IMG/VR virus record: IMGVR_UViG_3300035564_000051
Coordinates: 1 to 61,895 of that record
DNA: 61,895 nt
Strand: one strand, 5' to 3'
From: a virus
A program made the translations under genes and the position numbers. Below are positions 1,782 through 42,726 of the stretch, in pieces; the first letter of the stretch is position 1; the number at the start of each line of letters is the position of its first letter. The notes below the pieces were generated by a model that was given only the letters and a program-made list of their open reading frames with translations, was not told the DNA's origin and did no database searches.

Positions 1782-2900
1782 ATGGCCGGACAAATCTATC
1801 GAGCCTTGCAACGAAACCCCGATCCACTGGGCGGACTCTCCAGCTTGGCGCAGATGTATCTCTCGCACTTGGATCAGGAGCAGCGTAAGAAAGCTGTCTT
1901 TGACCGTCTCTCACAAACGAGCGTTAGACCCGTGATGGGAAATGAGGCGACTGTTCCGGTAGCCAATCCACCGGCAGCCGCGCCAGCACAAGCCCCGGCT
2001 CCTACCATGCAGCATCCGGTAGATGCCCAAGGTCTAGTCGGAATGCTTCCCAAAGAACCCGCCACAACCGAACTACCGCGCTTCCAGGGTACAGAGACCA
2101 CCACAAGACTGCGGCAACCATCAGAACTTTCAACACAGGAGAGGTTTGGACTCGGTAGTGATTTAGGAATGAACGCAGGTCAGATCCTGGATTTTCTAGC
2201 CAAGCCAGCACCACAGACTCACTTCGCTCCAGCTGGAAGTCAGCCGGGGTACTTTGATGCAACGGGAAAATTCGTTCCAAGTGGGGATCGGATTCCGAGA
2301 GAATTCCAGCCCCGAGCGCCGCAGCGACCACTTGCGCCGCAGAAGCCGGAATCTGTATTCTTGCGGTCTGAACCCGTAACAAAAAACGGAGTGACCAAGA
2401 TTTACGACCTCTACGGTCACAAGGACGCAAGCAATAAGGAAGTCGTCACCGAGCGCAAGCCGCAAGACTTCACAGAGAAATCCCCGTCCTCTCAAGGCTC
2501 TGGCGGAGCCGCCGATCATCGCGCAACCGAGGCGCAGATCACTAAACTCACTTCCACCAATCAGGAACTAGGCCGACAGATCACCTCCATTCAAAATGGT
2601 GTCTCGTCAATTCCTGAAGTAAAGGGAGAGAAACCCGAAGACAGGGCTACGCGACAAAAGGCGTACGTTGACAAACTCCGTTCAACCATCGACGAGAATG
2701 AAACCCACATAGAGCGATTGAACAAGCAAATCGGCGGCACATGGCGCAAGGGCGATTCAGAACAAGGCCAAGCCGCATCCGACAAACCCAAAATGAAACT
2801 CTCCGACATCAAATCAAAATGGGGAGCCGAAGCCGTTCAAGGATATTCCGACGATGAACTCAGGGATTATCTCAAGAAGCAAAACGTCGAGGTCGAATAG
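1782..2900 (+). CDS. Internal virion/ejection-type protein
   Basis: 372 aa from ATG 1782. An in-frame GTG at 1773 lies only 3 nt after the AAAGGA site, which is too close, so 1782 is preferred. The N-terminal 35 residues are helical (LSSLAQMYLSHLDQEQRKK). The middle is disordered and rich in Pro, Ala and Gln. Residues about 225-310 form a coiled coil with TEAQITKLTSTNQELGRQI. The C-terminus (KLSDIKSKWGAEAVQGYSD) is acidic and helical. It overlaps the next gene at TAGTG. With its neighbours it looks like a set of proteins ejected with the DNA, by position and composition only. Confidence 0.5.
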   Translation: MAGQIYRALQRNPDPLGGLSSLAQMYLSHLDQEQRKKAVFDRLSQTSVRPVMGNEATVPVANPPAAAPAQAPAPTMQHPVDAQGLVGMLPKEPATTELPRFQGTETTTRLRQPSELSTQERFGLGSDLGMNAGQILDFLAKPAPQTHFAPAGSQPGYFDATGKFVPSGDRIPREFQPRAPQRPLAPQKPESVFLRSEPVTKNGVTKIYDLYGHKDASNKEVVTERKPQDFTEKSPSSQGSGGAADHRATEAQITKLTSTNQELGRQITSIQNGVSSIPEVKGEKPEDRATRQKAYVDKLRSTIDENETHIERLNKQIGGTWRKGDSEQGQAASDKPKMKLSDIKSKWGAEAVQGYSDDELRDYLKKQNVEVE

Positions 2901-5900
2901 TGTCAATGCCAGCCTTTGACATACCGCCCCCACCGCCGAAGAAAGTAGCTGCCGCTGGTGAGTTTAACATTCCACCACCGCCACCGAAGAAGCCTGTTCA
3001 AACTCCCGGCCTCGGCAATACCGCGGCTTTCAACAAAGGAATTGATGTATCTACCCCAGAAGGTGCAAAAAAAGCACAAGGGCAAGCCAGCGTCAAAACC
3101 GAACCTTCAATTCTTCCGGGCGTAACCGTCACAGCCAAACGCCCAACCGAAGGCGCGATCAACCTTCCCCCGGTTCCAGAAAAAGAACTTCAAGCCGGAA
3201 TAAGGACACTACCTACTCCACCTTCGATCACAACTCCAAGTACAGAAACCGAACTCGCTTATGAGGGCTTCAAGAAGGAGATAGAGAAATCGACGGGTCA
3301 TAAGCAGCCGGAACTCTCAAGTATCGGTGAAGCGCAAAAGTATCTAGCCGAGATGGGTGGACGCGAAAGGTGGTTACAGGCCGCGCCGCTCTATGCAGAG
3401 GCGTTAAGGAAAGCTCCGTTCATTGGCCCAATCTTCGGGGGTGCGGAAACCGTAGCATTGGCAGCGAAAGAACCAGACAACCTATCGAAAGCACTTCAAG
3501 CCGCACAAGGTCTAGGTGAAGGTGCATTTGGAATTATGATGGCGCACGCCGCGGCCGCTCCCGCGATGCAGGCATTTCAAGCTATGGGACAAACCGGAAT
3601 AGATCCCGGAAAGCCTGTTCGGGAATTTTCTAGCAAGTATGCGCAGTGGGAAGCTCAGTCGAAACTCGGTATCAGCGATCCTCACCAGCTAGAAAAAGTT
3701 GGCGAGTTTGGTGGTATGGTAGGCGAACTCGGAATGTGGACGCTTGCGACGATGGCCCCCGCCTTACTGGGGAAATTTCAGGCAGGCACGGCAGGCCCGG
3801 AAGATGTCCGAGCCGCATTCGACATCATGCAGAATGCCCGCGCCGAAAACATCAAAGGCCCGGTGAGCGCGCACATCGTTGACCGCGTCGCATCTCAAGT
3901 GGGAAAGAACAAATTGGCCGGAGGACTGCTTGCCGGAATATCGAAGAAACTGGAATCTGGCGCAGCCTTATCGAATGAGGAAATGAACATTGTTCGTGAG
4001 AACTCGCCGGAGCAATACAAGACAGTCCTTGATGCTCTTCTGACCCGTCAGGAAGATGTCAGGCCATCCGAAGGCGCGACCCCGATCCTTGAAGGCAAAC
4101 CCGCACCAGAACAAGCGGGAATCGTTCAATCCAAGCCCGATGCGAATATCGCATATCGCGAACAGCAAATCTCTGACTTGATGAAGCGCAATCCATCAAT
4201 GCGCCGCGCCGATGCGGAAGCAATGGTTCAAGGCCAGAAGGCTCCTGAATCAAGACTCGTAAAGCCTCAAGGTGAAATCACTCGCACCGGAGAACAGGCA
4301 AGGGAAATTCCACCGCCACCGCCGAGAAGGATCGAATCTTCTGCGCGTACACCAGAAGTGCCGGGAAAAGGAATCACCCCGTTAGAGAAACCTATTCCAG
4401 CGATTGAAGAGAAGCCTATTCCGGCGGTGGAAAAGAAGGTTCCCGACATCAAAGAATTTGAAAAGAGGACAAAACTCTACAAGCCAGAGTTGGCACTTGG
4501 ACTACATCAGAACCCCTTCATCACTCCAGACGGTTTGCTCACGCCTCCGTACACCGCTCACAGCGACTTGGTTCGTGACTACAACGGGACGCGCGACATA
4601 CAAGGATTTATGAATGAAACGGGATATGTCAGACTGAAGGGAGAAGGCGACGCAATCAACGTCGAGATGGTGAATAAGCCAACATCCGAACAGTTTGAAA
4701 CGATTGAAACTGCATCCCCAACCGGAAAAATCCGATGGGATATTACCGGACCCGATGGGAAGATCAGGAAGAGCGGAGAGGCAGATGATTTAGAGACATT
4801 CAAACAACAAATGGATCGAGAAACTTTTTCTTCTCGACCCGCGCCTCAAACCTCTTCCGACTTCACCCAAAGAAGCCTTGAGAAGATCACAGAGAAGAAA
4901 GCAGCGAAGAAGACAGCAGTAGAACAGAGGAAAAAACCATTACCCCCCGGACAGAGGAAAAAACCATTACCCCCCGGTGAGATTCGCGGTAGCCAAGAAC
5001 CCACGTTACAGCCCGCGACGCAAGAACGTGGTGAGGCCATCGGGGAGGTAAAGGTTCCCGTCGCCCCCAAAACGATTCCACCCGGAGAACTCGAAGTCCG
5101 CAGTCTAGCCAAGCCAGCAACCGCGCCGCCATCCCCAGAGGACTTAGCCTCTCGCGCCGCAGAGAACAAAAAACAATCTCTCGGTCCAGTAAGGCATCAA
5201 GACATCACCAAAGCAGAACTAGACTACAAATCCAAGCTAGAACAATTTGGTGAGGACGCGCCCGAGACCAAAGCCGCAGAGCAAAAGGTCAAAGACCTTA
5301 CCCAGAAGTACGAAGCCGCGAAGAAACCCGCAACCGAACCTCTCCCCGAATTCAAATCATCCGAAGAGGCAGTTGAATTTGGCCGTAAGTACCCTGAGAG
5401 AATCCCAGAACTAGAAGCCCGCGCCAATGAAGCCACAGAAGCCTCACGGTCATTCAAGGATGAAGTCATTCCCGGTGAAGAACGCCCTCAAAGGTTAGAG
5501 CGCCTCAATCAAGCCATGCAACACGCAGTCCGCGCTCAACTAGCCCATGAAGCAATAGACTTCGCCAAAAATCCCAAGAGAGAAACCCCCATTGAAAAGA
5601 TCAGGAGGGAAGAGAAGGAAGCAGCAATCCCCAAGCCTCAGGCCCCAAAGGAGAAACAACCGTGGGAGCAAACCAAGGCTGAGTACATCAAGGCGAATGA
5701 AGGCGAGATCGTCCCGACCCCCGGTGAGAGGTCGAAACAGCGTCAATCCACAAAAGAAGAACGCGCATACGCTCATAAGAATATCGTTGCAAGTGCAATC
5801 GAACGCGGCGAATCTATTCCCGAATCAGTCCTCAAAGACTACCCTGATCTTGCTTTACCAAAGGAGAAAGCCGAACCAACGCTTCAAGAGAAAGCGGAAC

Positions 5901-7788: not shown

Positions 7789-8238
7789 ATGGCATCGACA
7801 ATTCAAATCCGAAGGGACACGCTGGCGAATTGGGCATCGGCAAACCCAACGCTTGCTCAAGGTGAAATCGGAATCGAATCCGATACCAGGAAGATGAAGT
7901 TCGGCGATGGTGCGACCGCCTGGAACAGCCTGCCGTACTTCACAGGCATTGCATCATCCAATCCGATCAAGGGAAGTGCTGTTGTGGACTTCGGCAACGC
8001 TCCGGGCAAACAGCGAACAACCGTCACGGTCAACGATGCGAATGTGCTCACAGCATCGAAGGTCATGGTGTTCATAGATCCCACAGCAACGGCAAAGCAC
8101 AACGCGTATGAGCACAGCATGGTTCCCCTTGTCTTGTCTGCGGGAAGCATCGTCAATCAAACGTCATTCGTCATCACAGCAATTTGTGAATGGCCTCTGA
8201 CCGGGACTTTTAACGTAGCCTATATCATAAACATCTAA
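7789..8238 (+). CDS. Fibre-like protein with hyaluronidase/Mtd-type N-terminal domain
   Basis: 149 aa from ATG 7789; the open frame extends further upstream, but a TAATG overlap with the previous gene fixes the start. Residues 4-50 carry the well-known phage fibre attachment motif: IQIRRDTLANWASANPTL, then AQGEIGIESDTRKMKFGDG, then AWNSLPYF. This domain occurs at the N-termini of phage tropism determinants and hyaluronate-lyase-type fibres and binds the tail. The remaining 95 residues form a small beta domain (VVDFGNAPGKQRTTVTVND...FNVAYII), possibly the receptor-facing part. Confidence 0.7.
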   Translation: MASTIQIRRDTLANWASANPTLAQGEIGIESDTRKMKFGDGATAWNSLPYFTGIASSNPIKGSAVVDFGNAPGKQRTTVTVNDANVLTASKVMVFIDPTATAKHNAYEHSMVPLVLSAGSIVNQTSFVITAICEWPLTGTFNVAYIINI

Positions 8239-8251
8239 ACAGGAGGTTGTC

Positions 8252-9787
8252 ATGGGTTTTCAAAAAGAAGGTTCCAGCGGTAACGTCCAAGACGTTGACG
8301 TTAACCACAATGCTCTAGTTGCTCTTCCCGGTCATACTGCCGCAGGGGTTCCCCGTGGAGGTGGGCAGTCAGAGGCTGGTGATGTCGCACTGTTCTCTGA
8401 AATTGATGAGGGTGTAGTCACTGGGGTGCGCGAACTTATCAGTCCCGAGACTGATACCGACGGCAGGCTTCGTGTAACGGAAGATCATTTGCTGGACCAG
8501 GAGTTCTTCAACTACACAACGCACAATACAAGCAAGCACACCTTCACCTTTACCACGATGGCTGCAACTTGCACCGCCGCGGGGATTACGACAAACTCAG
8601 GCAGCGTCACAACGACTTCTATTGGTCTGACCTTTGGGACGTTTGCGGCCTTTCCCGTTGGCGGAAATCAGACAACGATCTGTGAAACAAGTGCCTCATT
8701 CACCGCGTTGGCGAACGACAATACCAACATTGATTTCGGATTGTTCTTGCGCGGAGCTACAACCGCTTTCGCACCGAGTGATGGAATCTACTTCCGTCTA
8801 TCTCCGGCGGGGTGGCAGGGTGTGGCAAACAACAACGGCAGTGAAGTTGCTACCACGGTATTCAAAGCAACTCCCGGTGGTGCGAACTGGACTCATGCCC
8901 TCAATACCATCTACCGCTTCAAGCTCCAGGTCAACAACACTAAGGCATCGTTCTTCATCAACGGTGTCAAGATGGGAGAAATACCCACACCTGTTGGTTC
9001 TGGTTTCCTGTGTTCCAACGTCTCTTTGCCGTGGAGTTTCCGTCATGCCATCGTTGGTGGCGTGGCTGGCGCAATTTGCTCTGCGGTGTTCAGTGATTAC
9101 AAAGTGATGGTCCGCGGTGCGATGTTCGCTCAGGACATGGGCAGTGTAGGCAATCGTATCTATGGTTCATACCAATACCTCTCAGGTCAAGGCGCGGTCG
9201 GTCAGATGATGGCTGGCACGGTTACAACGGGAACACTGGTCAAGCCGACAGCCGCGGTTCCGCTGAATACATCACTGGCGGCGAACCTTGCGGCTGGACT
9301 TTCGGGACGTTCGATAGAAACACTTAGCAGCGGTCTTGCTGTGAACGTGGATGGCATTCTCGCGCAGTATCAAGTCCCGGCGGGAACAAACATCATCCCC
9401 GGACGCAGGCTCAAGATCGTGGGCCTCAAACTTTCGAGTATCATTACGACGGTTATTGGCGGTGGCACGGCTGGCAGTGTGGAAGTCTGGATCGGTTACG
9501 GCAATACAGCGACCTCATTGCAAACCGCCGAGACCGGCTCAATGGTCACAGCCACAACGAAGGCTCCGCGGCGTGTGTTCTGCCCATCCTTGACTCAGCA
9601 CTATGTTGTCACTCAGGCCGCAGACACAGGGGTTGCTCAGAACGCATACTACGAAGATTTTTCAGCCGCGCCGATCTACGTCAATGCTGGCGAGTTTGTG
9701 GAAATCATTATATGCAAGTCATTCACGACCATTCCGACTTCTGGGATAGTTCAACACGCGTTCCAATTCGTTTACAGTTGGGAGTAA
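8252..9787 (+). CDS. Beta-rich virion surface protein
   Basis: 511 aa with a strong AGGAGG site ending 6 nt before ATG 8252. Residues about 75-300 look like a jelly-roll or lectin-type domain (FTFTTMAATCTAAG..., IDFGLFLRG, GIYFRLSP, YRFKLQVNNTKASFFINGVK). 'FKLQVNNTKASFFINGVKMG' resembles the carbohydrate-binding LamG-like strand pattern in which a ligand-bearing loop precedes an 'F.ING' turn. A second beta domain, about 340-511, ends FVYSWE. Probably a decoration or receptor-binding protein; the exact role is unknown. Confidence 0.55.
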   Translation: MGFQKEGSSGNVQDVDVNHNALVALPGHTAAGVPRGGGQSEAGDVALFSEIDEGVVTGVRELISPETDTDGRLRVTEDHLLDQEFFNYTTHNTSKHTFTFTTMAATCTAAGITTNSGSVTTTSIGLTFGTFAAFPVGGNQTTICETSASFTALANDNTNIDFGLFLRGATTAFAPSDGIYFRLSPAGWQGVANNNGSEVATTVFKATPGGANWTHALNTIYRFKLQVNNTKASFFINGVKMGEIPTPVGSGFLCSNVSLPWSFRHAIVGGVAGAICSAVFSDYKVMVRGAMFAQDMGSVGNRIYGSYQYLSGQGAVGQMMAGTVTTGTLVKPTAAVPLNTSLAANLAAGLSGRSIETLSSGLAVNVDGILAQYQVPAGTNIIPGRRLKIVGLKLSSIITTVIGGGTAGSVEVWIGYGNTATSLQTAETGSMVTATTKAPRRVFCPSLTQHYVVTQAADTGVAQNAYYEDFSAAPIYVNAGEFVEIIICKSFTTIPTSGIVQHAFQFVYSWE

Positions 9788-9790
9788 GAG

Positions 9791-10063
9791 ATGTTCGGTG
9801 GATGCTATTTCGGTCAGACATATCCTTCAGGGCAAGTTCAGTGGGTGGCATCTCCAACTCCGCCACCCCCTGTTCCTGTACCGGAGGTCGTGACTCTTCC
9901 CGATCACACTGGAGGAAGCCCTACAAGGTACCGAAGAGATGAATATGAATGGCCTGAGATACTCCGCACACAAGTAAGGGAAAGGGCTTTAGTCAGAAAT
10001 GAATCAGACATCAGAGACATTGTTCAACTCGTAAGGATAGCTCTAGAGGAACTATGCCGGTAA
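9791..10063 (+). CDS. Small protein with proline-rich linker
   Basis: 90 aa, starting 3 nt after the preceding stop and overlapping the next gene by 10 bp. It has an aromatic/Gly N-terminus (MFGGCYFGQTYPSGQVQW), a proline linker (PTPPPPVPVPEVV) and a helical acidic/basic C-terminus (LVRNESDIRDIVQLVRIALEEL). No family is recognised; position suggests a minor virion component or assembly factor. Confidence 0.45.
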   Translation: MFGGCYFGQTYPSGQVQWVASPTPPPPVPVPEVVTLPDHTGGSPTRYRRDEYEWPEILRTQVRERALVRNESDIRDIVQLVRIALEELCR

Positions 10064-13000
10064 ACCCATGCTTCGCAAAATACTTTCCTCAACTGGTCAA
10101 AGCTGATAGAGACCTCATCAGAGAATCTACCCAAGACTATATCAAGAAAGGGATGGATGAGAGAGAGGCTGCCCAAAAAGCTGTTAGTGATAAGATAGAT
10201 TCTCTCAATGCAGATCGCCGCCGCATCCACGAACAGCTCATCGCGGAATCTGAAAAGCTCAATCCTGAATTGGTGAAGGGACTCAGGGAGAAGTACGCGC
10301 CAAAACCAGAGGCCGCGCCGGAAGCAAAGGCCGAACCAACGTCGCAAGAAAAGAAGGAACCCGCGCCAGCCCAAGAAGAACCACCTCTTCGTAAAACCGG
10401 CACAGCCGGAATGCCTCTCTACTCCTTCGCCGCAGGTACAGTCCTCGGCATTCAAAAAGACGATGAAGGCAAGTACACCTACAACCCCGCCATAGGATTA
10501 CTTGGTGGTTTAGCTCTTGGAATGTTATCTCAAAAAGCCCTTGGAGCGTTAAAAGAGATTGAAACGGCTATTGCGAAAAAGGGACTCTCAGCCAAAGCCG
10601 CGGCAACAGAGTTCCAATCTGAGGTAAAGACCTATCTCGAAACTGAGGGCAAGTCGATGAAGCCCGAAGAGAAGGCCGAGATGGAGAAGTTGGCTACGTC
10701 AGAGCGCATCGCCCGTGCAATCCGAATCCAAGAAGGCAAGCAGGAACCTCTCGGTGGCGAGTTCACGCGCAAGCAGGGAATGACCAAGACCCTTCTTGCC
10801 TCAGCCGAAAAGAAGATCAGAGAACAAAGACTCAAGACATCCAGACCCCAGGAGATCACCGTTGAAGGTGGCGGACAGTTCAAAGAAGCTCTGAACAACC
10901 ACCGCCTCGACGCGTTGATGAAGGGCTTGACCGGAAAAGAACTTGTGGACTATGTGAGGCAGAAAGCAGTAGAAGAAATCTCCGCCGCCAAAGAACTAAA
11001 GCAGAAAGACGTTGATTCAGTTGCTCGCTGGCTGCAAAGGCTCGAAATCCGGCAGAAGCGATATGATGTTGAGCAGCGCGTCCGTGATCGTCGCTATGAG
11101 ATTGCCAACAATCTTGCCGACAAGATATTCACCGACAAACTGCCGAAGGAGCTTCAGGAACAGCTTCTTCAAACCGCTTCCCAGTTCCGTCGATCATCCG
11201 ACACGCAAGGAAAGTTCCTAGCAGGCTTCAAATCCCGCGTTTCCGTCATGGCCGATAGCTACGGCGCAGCCGGGGGAGAACTCTCAAACCGCATGTATCA
11301 AGGTGACATCTCCCGCAATCACTTCATGGAACTCGGTGAAGATGCCATTGGTAAGATCAGGGACACCTACGATGACCTCAAGAGCCCGTTTGAGAAACAG
11401 AAGGTCTCTGATGCCGTTATCAACGCTCTCGAACACCGGGACAACCCCAACGAGTATTTGAAAACCGAGCAGCAAAAGGAAGTATTCAAAACCGCAAAGG
11501 GACTCCTTGACCAGTTCAAAACAGAACTCAAGGCAAAGGCGTATGAGGTTCGGGAGGACTATTTCACCCACATCAGGGACGTTGATATTGTTGAACAGGT
11601 AATGAACGACGTTCTCGACCCCAAGAGGGAAAGCGTCGGCAGTCTGAATCAGATGATAAGCGACAAGTCAAGATTCCTGAAACCCCGCATTGATGCAGAA
11701 ATGGAGATTAGGCGGGATCTGCCGTACGTGCTCTCGACCTACGTACGATCGGTCTCGAAAGAACTTGCCTACCGGGATGCAGTCGAATACTACTACTCCC
11801 AATTCCAGAAAGACATTCCCGCAGCCTTGAGGCGCAATAGCATGGATCGGGCAGTAAGGATGATGCGCGGCGCACTGAATCCCGAACGGGGAAGGGGATT
11901 ATTCTACAACGGCATCAGCTTCATCCGTTCAAACGAGTACAGGAACTTCCTCGGAATGAACCTCAAGGCATCAGCCCAGAACATGACTCAGCCGGACTTT
12001 GCGCGTTGGAGATGGTCGCCGGAGGCCAATGCCCTTCAGAAAGAAGTCTGGTCAAAGCGCAAGTCGATCACTGGTCCGCTTGCCGATGCGATTTCAGTTG
12101 CTTCAAGTGATACTCCCCGTTTCCTCGAACTCATCAAGGAGCCAGGAGAAGAGAGAAAACATCTTCTCACAGAGAAGTTCAACCAGATTGACACCTTCCA
12201 ACTCTCTGAAGGCCGCAACTGGTCTGTCTCGGAGATGGGCGCAATACTCAATTCAGCAATGAAGGAACCGAGCTATAAAAAAGCCCTTGAGGCAGCCAAG
12301 GGTGACAAACTCAAGGCCGTTAATACGGTGCTGAAGAGTCAGGATGCCTTTGACCGCGCCGTAAGGGATGCAGCGGTGACATCAGCCGAAACGCAAGTAG
12401 CAAGCGCACCCTCGATGCGTGGAGAGTTCTACGACGATCCCCTAAAGCGTGTTATCGGAATGTTCACAGCATTCAAGATGCGCCAGTTGCAGGTACTCGG
12501 GGCCGCCCTCGGCAAACAGGAAGGAATCAACGGAGCTCGCGCCAAGATGATCCTGCGGCGCGGAATGAGTGGTGAAGTTGCTCCCGTGGAAGTATTGCGT
12601 GAAGTCGAAACAAACCGCGTAGCTCTTGAGAAGATGCTCAAAGAAGCCCAAAAGACCAAAGAGGACATTGGCGTTTCCTATGACAATGCCCAGACGTACA
12701 TCAATTATCTAAAGACTCAAGAACAAAGTCTCAATCAAATCATCAAGCAGATCGAACCCCTGGGCGGTGGCCGCGGCCGTCAGAGCGCGCTCGTCGGGAA
12801 ATACTTTCTGAAGGTCGCCGGAATCTCAATGGCATTCTCCCTTCTCTGGGATTCAGTGGACTACGCCATCACTGGAAACGAAAAGAAACAAGAGGACATG
12901 GTTCCTCGCGCAATGCAGAAGGCATTCTGGGATGTCTTTCCCTCTCCGATGTATGGCATGGACCCCGGCAAGTTCCTTGTCTCTCCGGTACTTCCAAGTC

Positions 13001-13290
13001 TTGAACACGCTATGAACTACGGGAAATTCTCAGGCCGCGGATTGGCAACAGACATTACCAGCTATGGATTGAATATGCTTCCGTTCCTCGGATTGATCGA
13101 CCGCGCCACGGGAAAGCATCTCGCAAAAGGAATTGTGAATCTCGTCGTTCCGCCTAAAGAAAAGCAAGCGCCATCGGGCATCAAGGCCGCGCCGATAGGA
13201 AAACAGACCGGGAAAACAAAGATTGGCGGCAAGTCCATCGGTTCAAACACACCGGACTACCTGGGAATGCTCGCGAACTCTAGGTCTTGA
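10054..13290 (+). CDS. Large internal virion protein
   Basis: 1078 aa. The first 45 residues are helical (FPQLVKADRDLIRESTQDYI). A Pro/Glu/Ala linker (about 80-115) precedes a Gly/Ala membrane-like segment (AIGLLGGLALGMLSQKALG, about 145-170). Residues about 350-1000 are predominantly helical, with conserved-looking stretches such as YNGISFIRSNEYRNFLGMN and SDTPRFLELIKE. A second hydrophobic segment lies near 920 (KVAGISMAFSLLWDSVDYAI). Size, helical content and two possible membrane segments fit an ejected channel-forming protein of a short-tailed phage. It sits directly before the ATP-grasp/GNAT/C39 genes. Confidence 0.5.
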   Translation: MPVNPCFAKYFPQLVKADRDLIRESTQDYIKKGMDEREAAQKAVSDKIDSLNADRRRIHEQLIAESEKLNPELVKGLREKYAPKPEAAPEAKAEPTSQEKKEPAPAQEEPPLRKTGTAGMPLYSFAAGTVLGIQKDDEGKYTYNPAIGLLGGLALGMLSQKALGALKEIETAIAKKGLSAKAAATEFQSEVKTYLETEGKSMKPEEKAEMEKLATSERIARAIRIQEGKQEPLGGEFTRKQGMTKTLLASAEKKIREQRLKTSRPQEITVEGGGQFKEALNNHRLDALMKGLTGKELVDYVRQKAVEEISAAKELKQKDVDSVARWLQRLEIRQKRYDVEQRVRDRRYEIANNLADKIFTDKLPKELQEQLLQTASQFRRSSDTQGKFLAGFKSRVSVMADSYGAAGGELSNRMYQGDISRNHFMELGEDAIGKIRDTYDDLKSPFEKQKVSDAVINALEHRDNPNEYLKTEQQKEVFKTAKGLLDQFKTELKAKAYEVREDYFTHIRDVDIVEQVMNDVLDPKRESVGSLNQMISDKSRFLKPRIDAEMEIRRDLPYVLSTYVRSVSKELAYRDAVEYYYSQFQKDIPAALRRNSMDRAVRMMRGALNPERGRGLFYNGISFIRSNEYRNFLGMNLKASAQNMTQPDFARWRWSPEANALQKEVWSKRKSITGPLADAISVASSDTPRFLELIKEPGEERKHLLTEKFNQIDTFQLSEGRNWSVSEMGAILNSAMKEPSYKKALEAAKGDKLKAVNTVLKSQDAFDRAVRDAAVTSAETQVASAPSMRGEFYDDPLKRVIGMFTAFKMRQLQVLGAALGKQEGINGARAKMILRRGMSGEVAPVEVLREVETNRVALEKMLKEAQKTKEDIGVSYDNAQTYINYLKTQEQSLNQIIKQIEPLGGGRGRQSALVGKYFLKVAGISMAFSLLWDSVDYAITGNEKKQEDMVPRAMQKAFWDVFPSPMYGMDPGKFLVSPVLPSLEHAMNYGKFSGRGLATDITSYGLNMLPFLGLIDRATGKHLAKGIVNLVVPPKEKQAPSGIKAAPIGKQTGKTKIGGKSIGSNTPDYLGMLANSRS

Positions 13291-13468
13291 TGCGGGAGAA
13301 AACGTAGCTGTAAGAGAAGAAGAAAGCCCAACACACAGCACAGTAAAAGGCGGCTCGAATGAAGTTGGAAACATCAAGAACTTGTCCGACAAAGAACAAA
13401 GCACACGCGACAACGCTGATTCCAAGAAAGGCCAGTAGCCGGTATGTATCAACTTTCTTCACACACAA
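13280..13468 (-). CDS. Candidate minus-strand small membrane protein
   Basis: A 62-codon minus-strand frame fills a plus-strand gap. Its product has two hydrophobic stretches, LLAFLGISVVACALFFVG and FIRAAFYCAVCWAFFFSYSYV, and ends SRIKT. The start is uncertain: TTG at 13468 or GTG at 13462. A TTGACA box lies 17 nt before TAGGTT on the same strand (13468-13496), which would place transcription initiation close to the GTG, that is, leaderless. It overlaps the end of the large plus-strand gene by 11 bp. It would be the only minus-strand gene in the window. The role could be exclusion or holin-like; this is not shown. Confidence 0.45.
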   Translation of the reverse strand: MCVKKVDTYRLLAFLGISVVACALFFVGQVLDVSNFIRAAFYCAVCWAFFFSYSYVFSRIKT

Positions 13469-13496: not shown

Positions 13497-13536
13497 CTGG
13501 ACAAATATGTCGCACTCACTTTGAGCCTTGAAAACA

Positions 13537-15867
13537 ATGGATGAATCACTCAAAAGTAAATGTTGCTGCGTGATAGATTTCGGAACCTGGCCCGAATTAG
13601 CCATCCGCCTCTCGCGTGAGTTCGGACGGGTACTCTATTTCTCCGCGTGGATTCAGGCATTCCCGAAACGAAACGACTATCAGGTAGGCATTGGTCTCGA
13701 CGGTGTAGAGCGAATAAGCGATTGGGAATCTCACTTTGACGAGATCGACCTTTTTGTTTTCCCACACCTCTACAACGCGCCGCTGCAAAATCTTCTTCGC
13801 TCGATGGGGAAACTCGTCTGGGGCAACGGTGGTGCAGAAGAAGCCGAACTCGACCGCTTCGCATTCAAGAAGTGGATGGAGCAGGTTGGCCTTCCGGTAG
13901 TTCCTACCGCGCAAATCATCGGCATGAAAGCTCTGAGAGACCATCTGAAGAAGGTCGAGGACAAGTACATCAAGACCAGCCGCTTTAGAGGCGATCAAGA
14001 AACCTGGCATCATGTCGATTATGAAACCTCAGAATCCTTCCTCGACAAAAGAGAGTACTCACTTGGCCCAATCAAAGATCAGGTGGAGTTCTTGGTGGAA
14101 GATTCAGTCAAGGGCATTGAGGTAGGTTTTGACGGCTGGACAATCAACGGGCAGTACCCCGAAGTGGCCTCACTGGGTTATGAGATCAAGGATGTCGGAT
14201 TTGTCGGAGTCATCAAACCCTATTCTGAATTTCCACCTGAGATGACAGCCATCAACGAGAAGATGTCGATGATCTTTCAGACAAATAAGTCTCGCGGATG
14301 GTACTCGAATGAAGTGCGAATCACGGAGGATGGAAGATTCTATTTGACTGATCCTACAATTCGATGCTTCAGCTCTGACACGGAGATTCTTACCGAGAAT
14401 GGATGGAAGTTGTTCCCCAATCTCATTCGCGGCGAGAAAGTAGCAACGCTGAACCCCGAGACCCGCCAGATCGAATATCAATCACCAACGGCATACATCG
14501 GCTATCCGTACGCAGGGGAGATGGTCTCGATTAAGTCGGACGGAAGAAGCCTTGACCAGCTCGTTACGCCCAATCACAACGTCTGGTATCTGACGCGCAA
14601 AGATACGGGACACGCCGAGCGGCTAACATCCTGCCGCGCCGATCAAATGTCCGGCAAGATGCGAATTCCCCGAACGGGAACATGGGTGGGGGAAGAACAG
14701 CCATTCTTCCAGCTTCCCGCGTATTCAAACGAATGGGATTCTGGAATGAATGGAAAAATTCACAAGAGAAAATACTGCCCGCCGATTGACATTGAGATGG
14801 ACCTTTGGCTCAAGTTCCTTGGGTTCTATTTGTCTGAGGGATCTTGTCATGGTGGCGGATGGTCGGTTCAGGTGACGCAGACGAAGCACCTAGAGGAATT
14901 CAGGTTCGTTATCGCACAACTTCCGTTTCCTTGGGGCGAGGACAAGGGCGGGCTTGCGCTACACTCGGTTCAGCTTCATCAATACCTAAGACAGTTCGGG
15001 CTTTGCGACAAGAAGTTCGTTCCTGATTTCGTTAAGAGGTTATCGCCACGCCAAATCAACATTTTCCTTGATGCGTACACGATGGGAGATGGCTACGTCA
15101 AGGGTGGCATCCAAAGAATAATCTCCACGACATCAAAACGAATGGCTGATGATCTTCAAGAGCTTTTCTTCAAGGTGGGTTCATTGGCGAACATCCGAAG
15201 AGACAGAGTAAAAGGAACACCAATGAGTGTTCGAGGTGGAAAAATCTATATCAGAAATCACGATGGCTATGTAGTGAAGGAGCGATCCCGCCGCTCGGTA
15301 TTCTATCTCGATACCTGCGACAAACGGTATAATTACGTCAAGCGCGTTCCATACGAAGGAATGGTGTTCGATGTGACAGTTCCCAACGGAATCGTCTATG
15401 TTCGCCGCAATGGGAAGCCCGGATGGTCCGGCAACTGTCCCTATCCACCCGGCGAAGCTCTGATGGAAGTCTATGAGAACCTCGGGGAAATTCTTTACTA
15501 CGGCGCGCAAGGCCAAATGGTAGTTCCGCGACCCTTAACCAAATACTTCGCCATTGCGCGCATCGAAGCTCCGACAAGTGAGGATGATTGGAACACTCTC
15601 TTCTTCCCGCCCGAACTCCGTCAGTGGATCAAGCTCCACGATCTTACCATCATCAATGGCAGATCCTATACCGTTCCCCACAGAATCGAAGAGTGGACGC
15701 GCATAGGAAGTGTGATTGGTTTTGGCGATACGGTCGATGATGCGATTGGAACAGTAAGGGAAAGAGCCGAGCAACTCAAGGGGTTCAAGCTCAGTACCAC
15801 CGAAGACAAACTTGATGAGGCGAAAGACGCGATTCAGGCAGGAGAGGAAGCAGGAATTGAATTCTAG
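13537..15867 (+). CDS. ATP-grasp carboxylate-amine ligase, interrupted by an intein
   Basis: 776-aa precursor from ATG 13537 (TTG 13528 is possible); about 419 aa after splicing. The extein opens with a pre-ATP-grasp strand (CCCVIDFGTWPELA) and contains YIKTSRFRGDQETW, VEFLVEDSVKGIEVGFDG and, at the metal site, EVRITEDGRFYLTDPTIR. These fit ATP-grasp enzymes, which activate a carboxylate as acyl phosphate and join it to an amine. The intein sits exactly at the 'DPTIR/CPYPPG' metal/ATP-site motif. The next two genes are a GNAT and a C39-like peptidase, suggesting peptide or protein modification. The substrate is unknown. Confidence 0.75.
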   Translation: MDESLKSKCCCVIDFGTWPELAIRLSREFGRVLYFSAWIQAFPKRNDYQVGIGLDGVERISDWESHFDEIDLFVFPHLYNAPLQNLLRSMGKLVWGNGGAEEAELDRFAFKKWMEQVGLPVVPTAQIIGMKALRDHLKKVEDKYIKTSRFRGDQETWHHVDYETSESFLDKREYSLGPIKDQVEFLVEDSVKGIEVGFDGWTINGQYPEVASLGYEIKDVGFVGVIKPYSEFPPEMTAINEKMSMIFQTNKSRGWYSNEVRITEDGRFYLTDPTIRCFSSDTEILTENGWKLFPNLIRGEKVATLNPETRQIEYQSPTAYIGYPYAGEMVSIKSDGRSLDQLVTPNHNVWYLTRKDTGHAERLTSCRADQMSGKMRIPRTGTWVGEEQPFFQLPAYSNEWDSGMNGKIHKRKYCPPIDIEMDLWLKFLGFYLSEGSCHGGGWSVQVTQTKHLEEFRFVIAQLPFPWGEDKGGLALHSVQLHQYLRQFGLCDKKFVPDFVKRLSPRQINIFLDAYTMGDGYVKGGIQRIISTTSKRMADDLQELFFKVGSLANIRRDRVKGTPMSVRGGKIYIRNHDGYVVKERSRRSVFYLDTCDKRYNYVKRVPYEGMVFDVTVPNGIVYVRRNGKPGWSGNCPYPPGEALMEVYENLGEILYYGAQGQMVVPRPLTKYFAIARIEAPTSEDDWNTLFFPPELRQWIKLHDLTIINGRSYTVPHRIEEWTRIGSVIGFGDTVDDAIGTVRERAEQLKGFKLSTTEDKLDEAKDAIQAGEEAGIEF
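14365..15435 (+). other. Intein with LAGLIDADG homing-endonuclease domain
   Basis: 357-codon in-frame insertion. It starts at Cys (CFSSDTEILTENGWK, block A), has a TPNHNVW block B, then two LAGLIDADG-type motifs (FLGFYLSEGSC and LDAYTMGDGYVKGG), and ends with GMVFDVTVPNGIVYVRRNG then WSGN before a +1 Cys. The usual penultimate His is replaced by Gly, while the terminal Asn and +1 Cys are intact. The exteins join as ...DPTIR-CPYPPG.... Boundaries are set by these motifs. Confidence 0.88.
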
Positions 15868-15876
15868 GAGAATGAT

Positions 15877-16380
15877 ATGATTATCAGATTCAAACCTGAA
15901 CAATGGAACCGATTCAAAGCGCAGATCATGGAACTTGAGAGAATCTGTTTCGGTGGCAAACTGGAAATGAGCGAGGCCGACACAAAGGAATGTATGTGTG
16001 CGCCGGGGGCGCTGGTCTATCTGGCAACATTCAACGGCGTTGTGATTGGAAATACCTATGGAAACATTCTCTCGAAGATTGACAAAGCATGGTTTGAGAA
16101 TCATTGGAACCCGCGCAACTATAAGCACGATGGCCCCAAGACGGTCTATATCACATCAACAGCCGTTCATCCCGACTTCCGCGGTCAGCACATTGCGACG
16201 AAGCTAAAAAAGGCAATGATGAAGGATTTGAGACAGAGGGGTTTCCGGTATGTCATTGGTCACGCGCACAAAGGCCCCATGCTCACAATCAACGAGAAAC
16301 TAGGCGCAAAGGTCATTCAGAAATTCCCGCGCTGGTACGGTTCAAAACAAACGCACTACCTATATGAGATCGAACTTTAA
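15877..16380 (+). CDS. GNAT-family N-acetyltransferase
   Basis: 167 aa with an AGGAG site at 15866-15870. The GNAT core is visible: a start helix, the strand LVYLATFNGVVIGNTYG, the central strand TVYITSTAVHPDFRGQHIATKL, whose 'R-G-Q-H-I-A' is the acetyl-CoA pyrophosphate loop, and a final part NEKLGAKVIQKFPRWYG. It transfers an acetyl or other acyl group from CoA to an amine. Its gene follows the ATP-grasp ligase by 9 nt and overlaps the peptidase gene, so all three are probably co-translated. The substrate is unknown; amino acids or peptides are plausible. Confidence 0.75.
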   Translation: MIIRFKPEQWNRFKAQIMELERICFGGKLEMSEADTKECMCAPGALVYLATFNGVVIGNTYGNILSKIDKAWFENHWNPRNYKHDGPKTVYITSTAVHPDFRGQHIATKLKKAMMKDLRQRGFRYVIGHAHKGPMLTINEKLGAKVIQKFPRWYGSKQTHYLYEIEL

Positions 16381-16804
16381 GCAGGATAGAGACTACAACT
16401 GTGGCATCTTCGCGAGCATGTATGTGTTGTGGAATTTCTGCGGCATTCGGAAACTCAACCCGCGATTCTTGGAAGAACTCGCATGGACCAAAAAGAGAGA
16501 TGGTACTAGACACGAAGGAATCTGTGAGATATTCAGGCACTATCAGATTGACACCGAATATGGAACCGGAACAATCGACCTCATTCGCGGCAAGGTTCCA
16601 GTGATCGTCAACTTCCAGCTTGACAGAAGCGGGCACTACGGCGTTATCATTGGTTGGAATGGTAGTGAAGTTCACCTATGGGAACCCTGGGGTGCGAAAA
16701 GTTATTGGTTGAGAGGGTCGGACTTCGATAAAATTTGGTTCAGCAAAAGGTTCGGTTCGCACTGGTTTTTACATCCATTTAACACGAAGGCGGCTTTGAC
16801 CTAG
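16364..16804 (+). CDS. C39-like (papain-fold) cysteine peptidase
   Basis: 146 aa, overlapping the GNAT gene by 17 bp. The N-terminal motif QDRDYNCGIFASMYVLWN places the catalytic Cys at about residue 14. SGHYGVIIGWNG supplies the catalytic His (about residue 88) and VHLWEPWG the Asp/Asn-type region. This matches C39-like peptidases, which cut after double-Gly leaders or act as papain-like amidases or transpeptidases. No transporter lies nearby. With the ATP-grasp and GNAT genes it could process or edit a ligated peptide or tag, but this is an inference from context. Confidence 0.7.
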   Translation: MRSNFKQDRDYNCGIFASMYVLWNFCGIRKLNPRFLEELAWTKKRDGTRHEGICEIFRHYQIDTEYGTGTIDLIRGKVPVIVNFQLDRSGHYGVIIGWNGSEVHLWEPWGAKSYWLRGSDFDKIWFSKRFGSHWFLHPFNTKAALT

Positions 16805-16845: not shown

Positions 16846-17262
16846 ATGATGTCCAAGAAAGAAAGAGAGATGTTTTTGGATCTTCACGCGAAAGTCACGG
16901 AAACACACGAAGGCATACAATTCATCCGTTACGGAATCAAGGTCAATGGACAGGAGGGATTGGAGCCGATTCTGGCAGAAAATCATGCGGTCAACAAAGA
17001 ACTCAAGTCTGATGTTAAAGACCTCAAAGACCGAACGAACTTCCTTTGGAAGATCACCGCCAAAACTCGCACCAGTTATGAACTCTGGGGTGCAATCCAA
17101 AGATGGGCCGAGCAGCACAAGATGTTCGCCTTCATGTTCAAAATACTTCTCAACAAGACAATGGCAAAGGTGCTGCTGATATTTTTGGGGATTATCTGTG
17201 TTGCTCTCTTTGGTGATAGCGCGCTCAACCTGCTAAACAGAATTGCTCACTTACTCAAATAG
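16846..17262 (+). CDS. Coiled-coil protein with C-terminal membrane segment
   Basis: 138 aa from ATG 16846, or ATG 16849, which is better spaced from GGAGG at 16837. Residues 10-75 are charged and helical. Near the C-terminus VLLIFLGIICVALFG (about 107-122) is a single membrane span followed by an amphipathic tail. The tail-anchored topology and its place before two more membrane proteins and an M15-like peptidase suggest a role in lysis (holin, antiholin or spanin-type). No family is recognised. Confidence 0.5.
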   Translation: MMSKKEREMFLDLHAKVTETHEGIQFIRYGIKVNGQEGLEPILAENHAVNKELKSDVKDLKDRTNFLWKITAKTRTSYELWGAIQRWAEQHKMFAFMFKILLNKTMAKVLLIFLGIICVALFGDSALNLLNRIAHLLK

Positions 17263-17272
17263 GAGGATAGTC

Positions 17273-17644
17273 ATGCACCCAATTCTCGCTATAAAACATT
17301 TCTTTGCCGGACTGTGGAAAGTGATTGTCGCGGTGGTAAGTTTCTTCGCCGCTGCTCTGACAGAAGCAGACGGCAACGGTGGCAAGGCTTCATTTGCCCG
17401 ACTGATGGGAACCTACGTCACCATCAGGATTGTAGAGTCAGAGATTCGCGGCGGCGCGGTCTCGCCCAATCTTATGACAATCTTCTGGGTGCTGGTAGGT
17501 TTTGCAATGGTCTCGAAAGTGCTGGCTCAGATGTCGCCTGCCGTGCTTGATATTGCAAGATCGTTTCTCGTCAAGGCTGGTGTTACGGTGAAATTGCCGG
17601 AGACCACGACTACCACTACCACACAGACGGAGACAAAGACATGA
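17273..17644 (+). CDS. Holin-like membrane protein
   Basis: 123 aa starting at ATG 17273, preceded by AGGAGG at 17261-17266; an upstream in-frame codon at 17243 lacks such a site. Two hydrophobic segments, LWKVIVAVVSFFAAALT and IFWVLVGFAMVSKVLAQM, are followed by a threonine run (ETTTTTTTQTETKT). It overlaps the next gene by ATGA. Size, topology and neighbourhood fit a holin, but no holin family signature is visible. Confidence 0.45.
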   Translation: MHPILAIKHFFAGLWKVIVAVVSFFAAALTEADGNGGKASFARLMGTYVTIRIVESEIRGGAVSPNLMTIFWVLVGFAMVSKVLAQMSPAVLDIARSFLVKAGVTVKLPETTTTTTTQTETKT

Positions 17645-18054
17645 TCGAGCTTCTCGCTATCCTTCTGTTCGCCATAAGCCCGTTTGTCTGGGCGTGGTTT
17701 GAACATTTCATCTTTGACCTGCGGGATCTTCACATCGGCCCGCCGGATGTTCCCATTCCCGAGGTTCAACTTGTCTGGGAGTATCACGGTCCAATGGCCT
17801 TCATCGTCTTTACGCTCTCGGCGCTTCTCTCCATAATCTTCACAACTTGGCTCTGCCTGCTCTTGGCTGGCATCTGGCTCTTTGTTGAGGATGTTGCTTA
17901 CACGGTGATATTCTACCTGTGGAAGCGGAAGAAGGGACTATCGCAAAAGGATGCTTGGGCTGCAGCCGTTGAAGCCGATACGTTCGGCAAATACATCTAC
18001 TACGCATGGACTGTCGGATTCATCTACACCGTGACGGTGCTGTTTATTCTCTAA
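17641..18054 (+). CDS. Multi-span membrane protein
   Basis: 137 aa with three or four hydrophobic helices: residues about 3-19 (ELLAILLFAISPFVWAW), 52-75 (MAFIVFTLSALLSIIFT), 77-95 and 117-137 (WTVGFIYTVTVLFIL). The Trp-rich aromatic ends are typical of integral membrane proteins. It lies in the putative lysis segment, overlapping the preceding gene by 4 bp. The function is unknown. Confidence 0.55.
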   Translation: MIELLAILLFAISPFVWAWFEHFIFDLRDLHIGPPDVPIPEVQLVWEYHGPMAFIVFTLSALLSIIFTTWLCLLLAGIWLFVEDVAYTVIFYLWKRKKGLSQKDAWAAAVEADTFGKYIYYAWTVGFIYTVTVLFIL

Positions 18055-19486: not shown

Positions 19487-19759
19487 ATGGACTGGATAGG
19501 AAATGTTTTCATCGTCATTGGACTTTGGTTCATCGGCAACAAGAAAAGGTGGGCGTTCATCTTTTCAGTCATCGGCGAGACCGCTTGGATTATCTACGCG
19601 CTGACGATTGGGCTTTACAGTCTCGCGATCATCTGTACGGTGTTCGCTGGCCTTGCCGTGCGTAGCTACTGGAAGTGGGGCAAAGAGCAAACCCCTGCCG
19701 AGCGCGCCGCATGGACAATGAAACTCAAAGATGTTGGCAACGTGAAGGAGGTAAAGTGA
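19487..19759 (+). CDS. Small membrane protein, PnuC-like
   Basis: 90 aa with three hydrophobic helices in the first 65 residues (WIGNVFIVIGLWFIGNKKRW, FIFSVIGETAWIIYALTIG, LAIICTVFAGLAVRSYWKW). The pattern GNK.RW.F...GE..W..YA resembles the end of the PnuC nicotinamide riboside transporter and related small phage membrane proteins. It is too short for a whole transporter. The C-terminal tail is charged. Confidence 0.45.
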   Translation: MDWIGNVFIVIGLWFIGNKKRWAFIFSVIGETAWIIYALTIGLYSLAIICTVFAGLAVRSYWKWGKEQTPAERAAWTMKLKDVGNVKEVK

Positions 19760-20298
19760 AATCCAATTCCAACAAGTTCCTGACCATCGCCGCAGGAGTA
19801 ATCCTCACCGACGATCTGGATGATTTTGCAGTGAGTCTCGATCCACACTTTGAACTCTTTGGCGTTCATGCGATAATCACTTCCGCTGTTCGCACCGAAG
19901 CCTCTCAAATGGAGTTGATTCGTAAGAAAGCCATCGAGTGCAATCTCACCTTCGCATGGCCGGTTGAAACAATGAACATGGAAGAGCTTGTCGAGTGGGG
20001 TGATAAGACCGTTCCCTTCTGGCAAGTCGTCTGGTCGCAACTTCTTTCCATCGGTCAAATGATAAATCCCCCAATCCCCGCCAAAGCAGAATTTGAATAC
20101 ATCCATGCAGACGGAAGACACATTCCACCAGGGCATGAGGTAGGCATCAGTGAGCATCAGGAGAAGAAAGCCATTGACATCGCCCGCAATGAACTCCACC
20201 TGATTGAGAAATGTCTGGATCACGCGAAGCTCTCAGGTGTGAATCTCAAATATCTCATTGAGCCAAAGAACGGCTGTGTACACACGGTGAAGGTATGA
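19756..20298 (+). CDS. M15-like peptidase, candidate endolysin
   Basis: 180 aa from GTG 19756, chosen because GGAGG lies 5-9 nt upstream (19747-19751) and the start overlaps the previous stop. Metal-ligand-like motifs are ITSAVRTEASQ (compare 'TSGYRS' of M15 enzymes), ISEHQEKKAIDI (S-x-H-x-x-x-x-A-x-D) and a terminal VHTVKV (compare 'HVHV'). M15 enzymes cut D-Ala or L-Ala/D-Glu links of peptidoglycan. The H...D...H order fits, but the G of the SxHxxGxAxD motif is a Lys. Location among membrane genes supports lysis. Confidence 0.5.
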   Translation: MKSNSNKFLTIAAGVILTDDLDDFAVSLDPHFELFGVHAIITSAVRTEASQMELIRKKAIECNLTFAWPVETMNMEELVEWGDKTVPFWQVVWSQLLSIGQMINPPIPAKAEFEYIHADGRHIPPGHEVGISEHQEKKAIDIARNELHLIEKCLDHAKLSGVNLKYLIEPKNGCVHTVKV

Positions 20299-27260: not shown

Positions 27261-27562
27261 TGGTAAACGAGGTAAAAAGTCATTCAGGATCGCCTACAAG
27301 CGCGCAAAGAGACCTCTTGATACCTGAGTATAGGCGCAGGCTTCGCCTCGTGCTACGACGATATAAACGCGGAAAGTCACTTCGCTCACTATCGAAGGCT
27401 TTGGGGCTTTCTCATCCGACGGTGCGGACAATACTAGAGCATCCGAACACTTCCGTATCACTGAAGACCATGATGAAAGTTTTGAGAGCAACAAGCAAGC
27501 GCAGGATTCACCTAACCCTGAGTCTGATCGGTCATGTAACAAAAGCCCGGTGTCCGTTCTAA
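27260..27562 (+). CDS. Helix-turn-helix DNA-binding protein
   Basis: 100 aa from ATG 27260 (TGATG overlap). After a basic N-terminus, KSLRSLSKALGLSHPTVRTIL (about 45-65) reads as a Cro/XRE-like HTH with a recognition helix, followed by LKTMMKVLRATSKR. It sits between two glycosyltransferases and may regulate the cassette. Family by pattern only. Confidence 0.55.
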   Translation: MVNEVKSHSGSPTSAQRDLLIPEYRRRLRLVLRRYKRGKSLRSLSKALGLSHPTVRTILEHPNTSVSLKTMMKVLRATSKRRIHLTLSLIGHVTKARCPF

Positions 27563-28641
27563 TGAAGGTCGCAATCATACTTAATCAGGTCTTCCCCTAC
27601 CGCAGTCCGGTGTTCGATCTACTGGGGTCTCACTATACGGTGATTTACAGTTGCCAGAAGGAGGGGAATAGGGGTTGGGAATCTCCCGAACTGAAGCACG
27701 ACTACATTTTCCTCAAACCCCGGATGATTCCCTATGGAGTAGAGGGATTCGCTCATGTCAATTTCGACATATTCAAAGCCTTGAGAGAAGTAGATCCCGA
27801 CGTAATCATTCTCTACGGCTTTGGCCCGACACAGCAACTAGCCTACCTTTGGGCGCGGCTTCACCGTAGAAAGATCGTCACATGGTTCGATGGATGGTCA
27901 CACACAGAGCGAAACAGAAGTAACCGGCAGCTTTGGATTCAGAGAATGTTCGTACGGCATTCTGAGGCGTGTATTGCGAGTAGCCAGAAGGGAAGTCGTT
28001 ACTTCTATTCACTCGGAGCATCAAAAGTATTTGTTGCACCAATGGCAGTTGACAATTCCAGATTCGCACCGGCAAAGAATAAACGTCCCTTCGATCTTCT
28101 CTTCGTCGGCCAGTTGATAGAACGCAAGGGGGTGCTCTTTCTTCCTGAGTTGATGAAAGAACTCCACGACAAGAAGCTAATGATTGTCGGTGACGGACCC
28201 CTGAAGGAAGAATTGCTCAAAAGGCTAATGAACATCCACGCAGACTTTCATCATGTGAGGTTCGTTCCCTGGGAAGAAATCCATTGGTATTATCAAAGGT
28301 CAAAGATACTTCTCTTTCCAACGCTGGATGATTCATGGGGGCTGGTTTGCAATGAAGCACTTGCCGCTGGATGTCCGGTCATAACCACAGACAAAGCCGG
28401 ATGTGCGGGAGAGCTGGTTCGTCACGCGGTTAATGGCGCGATTCCAGTAAGCATGGAACCCGTGTGGTTGTGGGCGCGACCAATAGATGAACTCTGCAAA
28501 CCCAAGTACCGGCGCGCCGCAATCGAATCAGTCAAAGGCTACACCCTCCAAGCTCAAGCCCAAGCGATAAGAGATGCAGTGGCTTGCGCGGCAAAAGAAA
28601 TTCTGTACAGAGAAACGAGAGATGTCTATGAAGAAAACTAG
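27562..28641 (+). CDS. GT4-type glycosyltransferase
   Basis: 359 aa from ATG 27562 in a TAATG overlap. The N-terminal Rossmann half begins MKVAIILNQVFPYRSPVF. The C-terminal half starts near residue 178 with FDLLFVGQLIERKGVLFL and contains IVGDGPL and DSWGLVCNEALAAGCPVITT, the E-x(7)-E region of GT-B family 4 enzymes. These use nucleotide sugars in the cytoplasm to extend lipid-linked glycans. Next to a GT-C enzyme, it could build the donor glycan. Acceptor and sugar are unknown. Confidence 0.85.
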   Translation: MKVAIILNQVFPYRSPVFDLLGSHYTVIYSCQKEGNRGWESPELKHDYIFLKPRMIPYGVEGFAHVNFDIFKALREVDPDVIILYGFGPTQQLAYLWARLHRRKIVTWFDGWSHTERNRSNRQLWIQRMFVRHSEACIASSQKGSRYFYSLGASKVFVAPMAVDNSRFAPAKNKRPFDLLFVGQLIERKGVLFLPELMKELHDKKLMIVGDGPLKEELLKRLMNIHADFHHVRFVPWEEIHWYYQRSKILLFPTLDDSWGLVCNEALAAGCPVITTDKAGCAGELVRHAVNGAIPVSMEPVWLWARPIDELCKPKYRRAAIESVKGYTLQAQAQAIRDAVACAAKEILYRETRDVYEEN

Positions 28642-28879
28642 TCGCGCAATCATTCTAACGCTCGCTTTCTTTGCCCTCCACGTTCTTGTCCGCATGATGG
28701 GAGATAAGTGGAATCCAACCGATGCCTTCATCTTCGGCTACACATGGGGTGGATGGGAATTTGAACTCTGGAAATTGGCCGGAACCCTGACGACGGTTAT
28801 TGTGTGCGTTGCGCTGGCTCTCGGCTTTGGATGGAATCTGGATGCGCTGCTCAAGAAATCGAAGATGAGTCAGAATTGA
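28622..28879 (+). CDS. Small membrane protein in the glycan cassette
   Basis: 85 aa from ATG 28622, overlapping the GT4 gene's end. Two membrane segments are visible: AIILTLAFFALHVLVRMMG and WKLAGTLTTVIVCVALALGFG. The middle is aromatic (TWGGWEFELW). It may be an accessory subunit for membrane sugar transfer, which is an inference from its neighbours. Confidence 0.5.
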   Translation: MSMKKTSRAIILTLAFFALHVLVRMMGDKWNPTDAFIFGYTWGGWEFELWKLAGTLTTVIVCVALALGFGWNLDALLKKSKMSQN

Positions 28880-29178
28880 AACTATCGAAGGTCATAGGGT
28901 TGGTTCAGGAATCTCCGGCACTATTTCTCTTTGCACTAGCCTGCATCTGGGTTGTGTTTATCGAACTGTTCAGAAAGGGATTTCCGATGGATTACACATT
29001 CAAGGTCGAAATCATTCGTGAGGGAGAGGATAGCGAAACGATCCATCGGGCCGTTTCTGCAACCAGCTTCGATGAAGCACTCAAGAAATTGCGTAATGAA
29101 ATCAGGAAGCGCCGCCCCTTGGATAAGTACTACCCCCTGGTGAGAGTTCTCTGGTTTGAAATTAACAAAGTCATTTGA
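28876..29178 (+). CDS. Small membrane-anchored protein
   Basis: 100 aa if it starts at TTG 28876, which overlaps the previous stop. It has one hydrophobic span (ALFLFALACIWVVFIELF) followed by a small alpha/beta domain (DYTFKVEIIREGEDSETIHRAV...FDEALKKLR). A start at ATG 28987 would remove the span. The C-terminus overlaps the methyltransferase gene. The function is unknown. Confidence 0.45.
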   Translation: MKLSKVIGLVQESPALFLFALACIWVVFIELFRKGFPMDYTFKVEIIREGEDSETIHRAVSATSFDEALKKLRNEIRKRRPLDKYYPLVRVLWFEINKVI

Positions 29179-29857: not shown

Positions 29858-30168
29858 AAACCGGAAACATCTGGAAAGATCGAGGTAACTACAAGATTTA
29901 TTTCGACCGATGGAGAAACTACCTGGGAAGCGCCCAGTTCCTCTTGATCCTCATAATGTTCATCATTCAAACCAAGATGAGTCTATGGTGGATCGTTGGT
30001 GGATTTCTTCTGTCAGTAGTCTGGATGTGGGTTGACGTTCGCTACATCCTTTCGGCTGAGTACGAATCTCAACAGCGCAAGAACTGGGAACTCACATCGA
30101 GGATGAAGAAGATCGACCACATAGAAACGATGTTGGAGAAACTAACAGGAGAAAAGAATGCAGGGTGA
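29854..30168 (+). CDS. Two-span membrane protein
   Basis: 104 aa from ATG 29854 (the longer frame from 29785 is inside the methyltransferase). Two hydrophobic helices (AQFLLILIMFIIQTK and MSLWWIVGGFLLSVVWMWV) are followed by a charged coiled-coil tail (MKKIDHIETMLEKLTGE). Probably a membrane accessory or unrelated phage membrane protein; no family recognised. Confidence 0.5.
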   Translation: MKTGNIWKDRGNYKIYFDRWRNYLGSAQFLLILIMFIIQTKMSLWWIVGGFLLSVVWMWVDVRYILSAEYESQQRKNWELTSRMKKIDHIETMLEKLTGEKNAG

Positions 30169-42640: not shown

Positions 42641-42698
42641 CCCGCGAAAATCTTCTTTGAATCCTATTCCTTCTCGGTACATTTGTAGTAGGAACTAG

Positions 42699-42714: not shown

Positions 42715-42726
42715 AGGATGGAACAA

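Follow-up and report, generated by a model that had tools for sequence, protein, structure and literature searches.

The window analysed here, a virus record of 61,895 bp (IMGVR_UViG_3300035564_000051), carries three intact and closely packed genes on its plus strand. The first (13537–15867, with an alternative upstream TTG start possible at 13528) encodes a 776-aa protein that comprises an intein and a 419-aa extein, and homology through a bridge family points to a GARS/PurD-type ATP-grasp enzyme. The second (15877–16380) encodes a 167-aa GNAT N-acetyltransferase and the third (16364–16804) a 146-aa stand-alone C39-like papain-fold enzyme. The gap between the ATP-grasp and GNAT genes is 9 nt, and the GNAT and C39 genes overlap by 17 bp. 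The earlier note, made from the letters alone, gave these coordinates, the spacing and the overlap exactly, and its enzyme classes were right, as judged for GNAT and C39 by Pfam cut-offs and for the ATP-grasp by way of the bridge family. A Shine-Dalgarno-like AGGAGA, read directly from the sequence (15866–15871, +), overlaps the ATP-grasp stop codon and lies 5 nt ahead of the GNAT start. G+C content by codon position in the three genes resembles that of the neighbouring genes, and no excess of promoters or terminators was found around them.

Upstream of the trio lies a gene for a 1078-aa protein (10054–13290, +), which is putatively of the internal-virion or ejection type only by position and by analogy with phage MW202796.1 (ct2os315) and with the related genome G005; a profile search gave no match, and its use as a query for related loci returned no relatives. 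Downstream, at 16846–18054 (+), lie three small ORFs of 138, 133, and 137 aa that contain hydrophobic stretches; they are lysis-like by position only and have no confident profile match. The names "internal virion protein" and "lysis region" are used below by analogy in this sense. A minus-strand 62-aa ORF (13280–13468) with two strongly hydrophobic stretches occupies the gap before the ATP-grasp gene. Beyond the putative lysis region, an ORF at 19675–20298 resembles, by eye, an M15-type peptidase endolysin and is without a Pfam match; the related contig L036 bears a T4-lysozyme-like ORF (2804–3223) at roughly the same position, and a lysin swap is possible. PADLOC gave no match. In agreement with the earlier note, a search found no precursor peptide, and no transporter was seen nearby; no tRNA was found either.

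The ATP-grasp ORF is interrupted by a 357-aa intein with a LAGLIDADG domain (14365–15435, +; LAGLIDADG_3, 3.5e-6), whose junctions fall between TDPTIR and C on the upstream side and between SGN and CPYPP on the downstream side. Its N-terminal end reads CFSSDTEIL and its C-terminal end WSGN, followed by Cys, and the residues just past the intein start match intein-bearing phage thymidylate synthase, RNR, and PhoH profiles. The penultimate residue is Gly, at a position where inteins usually have His. A homologous intein, also ending in WSGN, is found in the terminase large subunit (TerL) of the related contig L017 (G003), so that the usual penultimate His is missing from both, and the window's own terminase is without an intein. 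The insertion point lies directly after the conserved D-P-T-I-R, a motif with two family-invariant residues, and the intein would be expected to splice and leave the 419-aa extein.

Direct comparison of this extein with Pfam (up to E 5), PHROG (up to 10), and PDB gave no match, nor did tblastn against phages or its use as a query for related loci; direct searches of the viral collections with the ATP-grasp and C39 proteins likewise found no relative. Weak tblastn phage matches to the ATP-grasp core (a Serratia phage and Giantsbane) were judged to be chance because the ORFs were short, scans of viral contigs and genome contigs for a DPTxR...PP motif gave chance matches only, and an AlphaFold2 single-sequence model of the N-extein (pLDDT 35) was too poor for a fold search. 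The assignment came instead from the phylum to which an Acidobacteria MAG (L090/G007) belongs: in 396 genomes of that phylum, the extein had nine hits with E no higher than 0.02 (best 7.1e-6), and seven of these fell in a single family whose members are about 440–470 aa long. One acidobacterial member of this family matches GARS_A at 1.4e-15, with a GARS_C match under the cut-off, and the profile of the acidobacterial family scores 20 bits against the extein. When an acidobacterial member was used as a bridge, a protein of phage MW202796.1 was reached that is 30% identical to the bridge and itself exceeds the GARS_A cut-off; its gene (42140–43468) is without annotation in the deposited phage record. 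A profile including phage and plasmid members scored 40.7 bits against the extein, whereas none of 300 shuffles and no other ORF of the window exceeded 2.4 bits. The hhalign global probability between extein and family was 97.8%, with the best local agreement in the N-terminal half, and for a six-member alignment that includes the extein, the solved structures matched were all PurD (best 5.5e-33). On the strength of these bridge-family profile scores and PurD-only structure matches, the extein is classified by sequence as a very divergent GARS/PurD-type ATP-grasp and not as RimK-like; neither RimK nor RLAN is among the Pfam matches up to E 5. Bridging through bacterial paralogues can thus identify phage enzymes that have no direct profile match.

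The earlier note had made the presence of ATP-grasp active-site residues, with the intein left out, a test of its reading, and the outcome is divided. G193, E195, E216, K218, T274, and R276 of the extein align with residues that are invariant in the family. On the other side, D272 stands in place of the family Glu, the ATP-binding lysine of the VVKP motif corresponds to K146 only if the alignment is shifted by one residue, and there is no GPxTGxMG loop. In the alignment that includes 5vev, the PurD motif E-F-N-x-R corresponds to D-P-T-I-R, and neither the longer E-F-N-x-R-F-G-D-P-E motif nor the GPNTGGMGA loop of PurD is kept. Because the active site is remodelled and this signature is not kept, catalytic activity is likely though not certain, and the enzyme probably acts on a different substrate from PurD, so that the protein is probably not a purine enzyme. 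That it is a phage PurD, a GAR synthetase carried as an auxiliary gene for purine synthesis, is accordingly quite improbable even though the bridging family matches PurD only: the signature is lost, and no other purine genes were found among the proteins scanned. A housekeeping role as PurD was rejected on the signature residues. The best bacterial relatives of the extein form an acidobacterial PurD-like paralogue group (L109–L115), which has T274 and R276 in common with it where PurD has Asn for the Thr, a replacement common to the whole paralogue family; the paralogue differs from the extein in being chromosomal and in retaining a GPxTGEMGT loop. In one acidobacterial genome (G117; L129, 1852–7400), the paralogue adjoins LPG_synthase_C (MprF-type) and VirJ genes, a context missing around the paralogue in the other two (G178 and G194).

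The GNAT protein matches Pfam Acetyltransf_1 at 38.3 bits (cut-off 20.7), and its motif A reads RGQHIA. Its best PDB matches are weak (E 0.009–0.2) and include the N-alpha-acetyltransferases NAA30 and SSO0209, so that it is possibly of the N-alpha-acetyltransferase type. The C39 protein (P0003) matches Peptidase_C39 (PF03412) at 31.6 bits (cut-off 22) over nearly the whole domain, with a second, sub-threshold match to PF09778 (0.043). By eye, Q7, C13, and H91 fit the family, and E107 stands where Asp is expected. PF11814 was not matched by either protein in Pfam. The C39 protein gave nothing of note against PDB, no match against phages, no relatives as a query for related loci, and weak matches only in the plasmid collection; its AlphaFold2 single-sequence model (pLDDT 39.6) was too poor for a fold search.

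The earlier note's preset test of conservation went against the trio as a unit. Relatives identified by the window's terminase (L001–L004 and L021) are all fragments except G005, and their records may be incomplete. In G005, the longest at 67 kb and with a terminase 62% identical, the ATP-grasp, GNAT, and C39 proteins are all without a match, and the related contig L036 starts just downstream of the position corresponding to the trio. Phage MW202796.1 shares with the window no BLAST-detectable protein besides the ATP-grasp. There, a GNAT gene is followed by three internal-virion-type ORFs (212, 491, and 505 aa), the GARS-type ATP-grasp, and a lysozyme-like ORF reached across the record start, the internal-virion and lysozyme labels being assigned by eye. 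Its ATP-grasp is of the same type as that of the window and likewise has internal-virion-type ORFs on one side, a lysis-type ORF on the other, and a GNAT nearby. In contrast, it is only about 20–23% identical and lacks an intein, its GNAT is of another subfamily, has no detectable kinship to the window GNAT and lies three genes away, and no C39 gene is present. In PfAn1 and Vibrio phage 1.264.O, similar GNATs adjoin internal virion genes without an ATP-grasp, and therefore a GNAT may act alone. No second occurrence of the full trio was found. Since G005 has none of the three and MW202796.1 has ATP-grasp and GNAT without C39, the trio is not a conserved unit, and the combination of ATP-grasp and GNAT recurs in the ejection–lysis interval of one unrelated phage.

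GNAT and papain-like enzymes in peptide-ligase systems are a real precedent according to PMC10318531, which cites Iyer 2009; there, DUF3335 papain-fold enzymes are often fused to GNATs, these GNATs being proposed as peptide ligases or acetylases, and PF09778 is given as a close relation of DUF3335. The peptide-tag precedent invoked by the earlier note therefore holds for the GNAT and papain-fold components, but the precedent is of the RimK type, whereas the window has a GARS-type enzyme. The GNAT–DUF3335 (PF11814) fusions and ATP-grasp peptide-ligase operons resemble the window in combining a GNAT and a papain-fold enzyme with an ATP-grasp alongside; they differ in that the window ATP-grasp has no RimK or RLAN match and bears an intein, its peptidase matches PF03412 rather than PF11814, its GNAT and peptidase are encoded by separate overlapping genes, and all three lie in a phage late region. 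R2K ATP-grasp genes linked with GNATs have been proposed to perform peptide ligation and capping, with R2K.2 present in several phages (PMC4431377), and solo GNATs amid late structural genes have been suggested to be deployed in the capsid (PMC5512222). The modules of PA11, TC6, phiRIO-1, phiM6, and LUZ24-like phages also place a phage-borne ATP-grasp with other amide-forming enzymes, and in PA11, phiRIO-1, and phiM6 this different peptide-bond module has been proposed to modify host peptidoglycan (PMC6256558). LUZ24-like UFV-P2 carries amidoligase_2, COOH-NH2 ligase, glutamine amidotransferase, and GGCT genes in its early region. The ATP-grasps of MW202796.1 and the window showed no similarity by tblastn to any of these phages, and no amidoligase_2, COOH-NH2 ligase, or Gn_AT_II was found among the window proteins scanned.

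The reading tentatively preferred, at somewhat less than an even chance, is that the trio forms a late, translationally linked module that modifies proteins or peptides. The spliced GARS-type ATP-grasp would convert a carboxylate to an acyl phosphate for coupling to an amine. The GNAT, which may be of the N-alpha type, could acetylate the ligation product or a protein amino group, and the C39-like enzyme may carry out peptide trimming or transfer. The likeliest target would be either a virion (ejection) protein expressed together with the three enzymes or a component of the host envelope. We infer that the ATP-grasp splices and is catalytically active, and that the three enzymes serve a shared pathway on such a target. 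This reading draws on the tight packing of intact ORFs with the GNAT/C39 overlap and the AGGAGA next to the GNAT start, on the Pfam scores of GNAT and C39 and the family membership of the extein, on the recurrence of ATP-grasp and GNAT close to the ejection and lysis genes of MW202796.1, and on the precedents of R2K–GNAT links (PMC4431377) and GNAT–DUF3335 fusions (PMC10318531). It is weakened by the lack of the full trio elsewhere, including the 67-kb relative with none of the three genes, by the missing C39 and the unrelated, three-genes-distant GNAT of MW202796.1, by the GNATs without ATP-grasp in PfAn1 and 1.264.O, by the partly remodelled active site, and by the lack of a visible precursor, transporter, or tRNA. 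The main rival, which is somewhat less likely, is that three independent accessory late genes, with the GNAT acetylating and the C39 enzyme processing host or virion proteins and the ATP-grasp unrelated to both, have become adjacent because the ejection–lysis stretch tolerates insertions. The lysozyme-like ORF of L036, at about the place of a differently built candidate in the window, indicates that this stretch varies, and the failure of the trio to persist as a unit and the GNATs that adjoin internal virion genes alone agree with independence; the tight coupling and overlap of the three genes, and the recurrence of both ATP-grasp and GNAT in an unrelated phage, around its internal-virion and lysis genes, do not.

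A module acting on the cell envelope, in which peptidoglycan or lipid-linked amines would be modified for entry, lysis, or superinfection exclusion, is improbable. The trio adjoins the putative lysis region, the MW202796.1 ATP-grasp adjoins a lysozyme-like ORF, and a different phage peptide-bond module has been proposed to act on host peptidoglycan (PMC6256558); one acidobacterial ATP-grasp relative also lies beside LPG-synthase-type and VirJ-type genes, but this context occurs in only one of three acidobacterial genomes, and no similarity to known phage amidoligase modules was detected. The commonest neighbours of graspetide ATP-grasps are C39 double-glycine peptidase/ABC transporter genes (PMC8939145), which would allow the C39 protein to be the leader peptidase of a graspetide-like ribosomal-peptide pathway. 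Such a pathway is highly improbable given a GARS-type ATP-grasp and a stand-alone C39 domain, and it was rejected because no precursor or transporter is nearby; a RimK-like macrocyclase and a C39–ABC transporter were not found either. A more specific form of the preferred modifying module, and a decidedly speculative one, is a phage conjugation system in which an ejected virion protein would receive an amino acid or peptide from the GARS-type ATP-grasp, the N-alpha-type GNAT would cap it, and the C39-fold enzyme would trim it; ejection proteins would then bear a covalent tag. If the modifying module works as proposed, GARS-type ligases would join the known phage protein- and peptide-modifying enzymes, and the interval between ejection-protein and lysis genes would be a place to seek virion or envelope targets that are covalently modified.

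Elsewhere in the window, genes for a GT4 glycosyltransferase, a methyltransferase, a sub-cut-off radical SAM protein, an FkbM methyltransferase, and a GT9 protein are clustered at 27550–33459, possibly as a glycan decoration cluster. In G005 (L025, 7638–17537), a protein of 3299 aa is probably a giant internal or polyvalent virion protein, and after it comes a collagen-like repeat protein of 1555 aa. The 165-aa protein encoded at 44819–45316 of the window has several homologous copies in G005, at 8191–13067 and 66001–66489.
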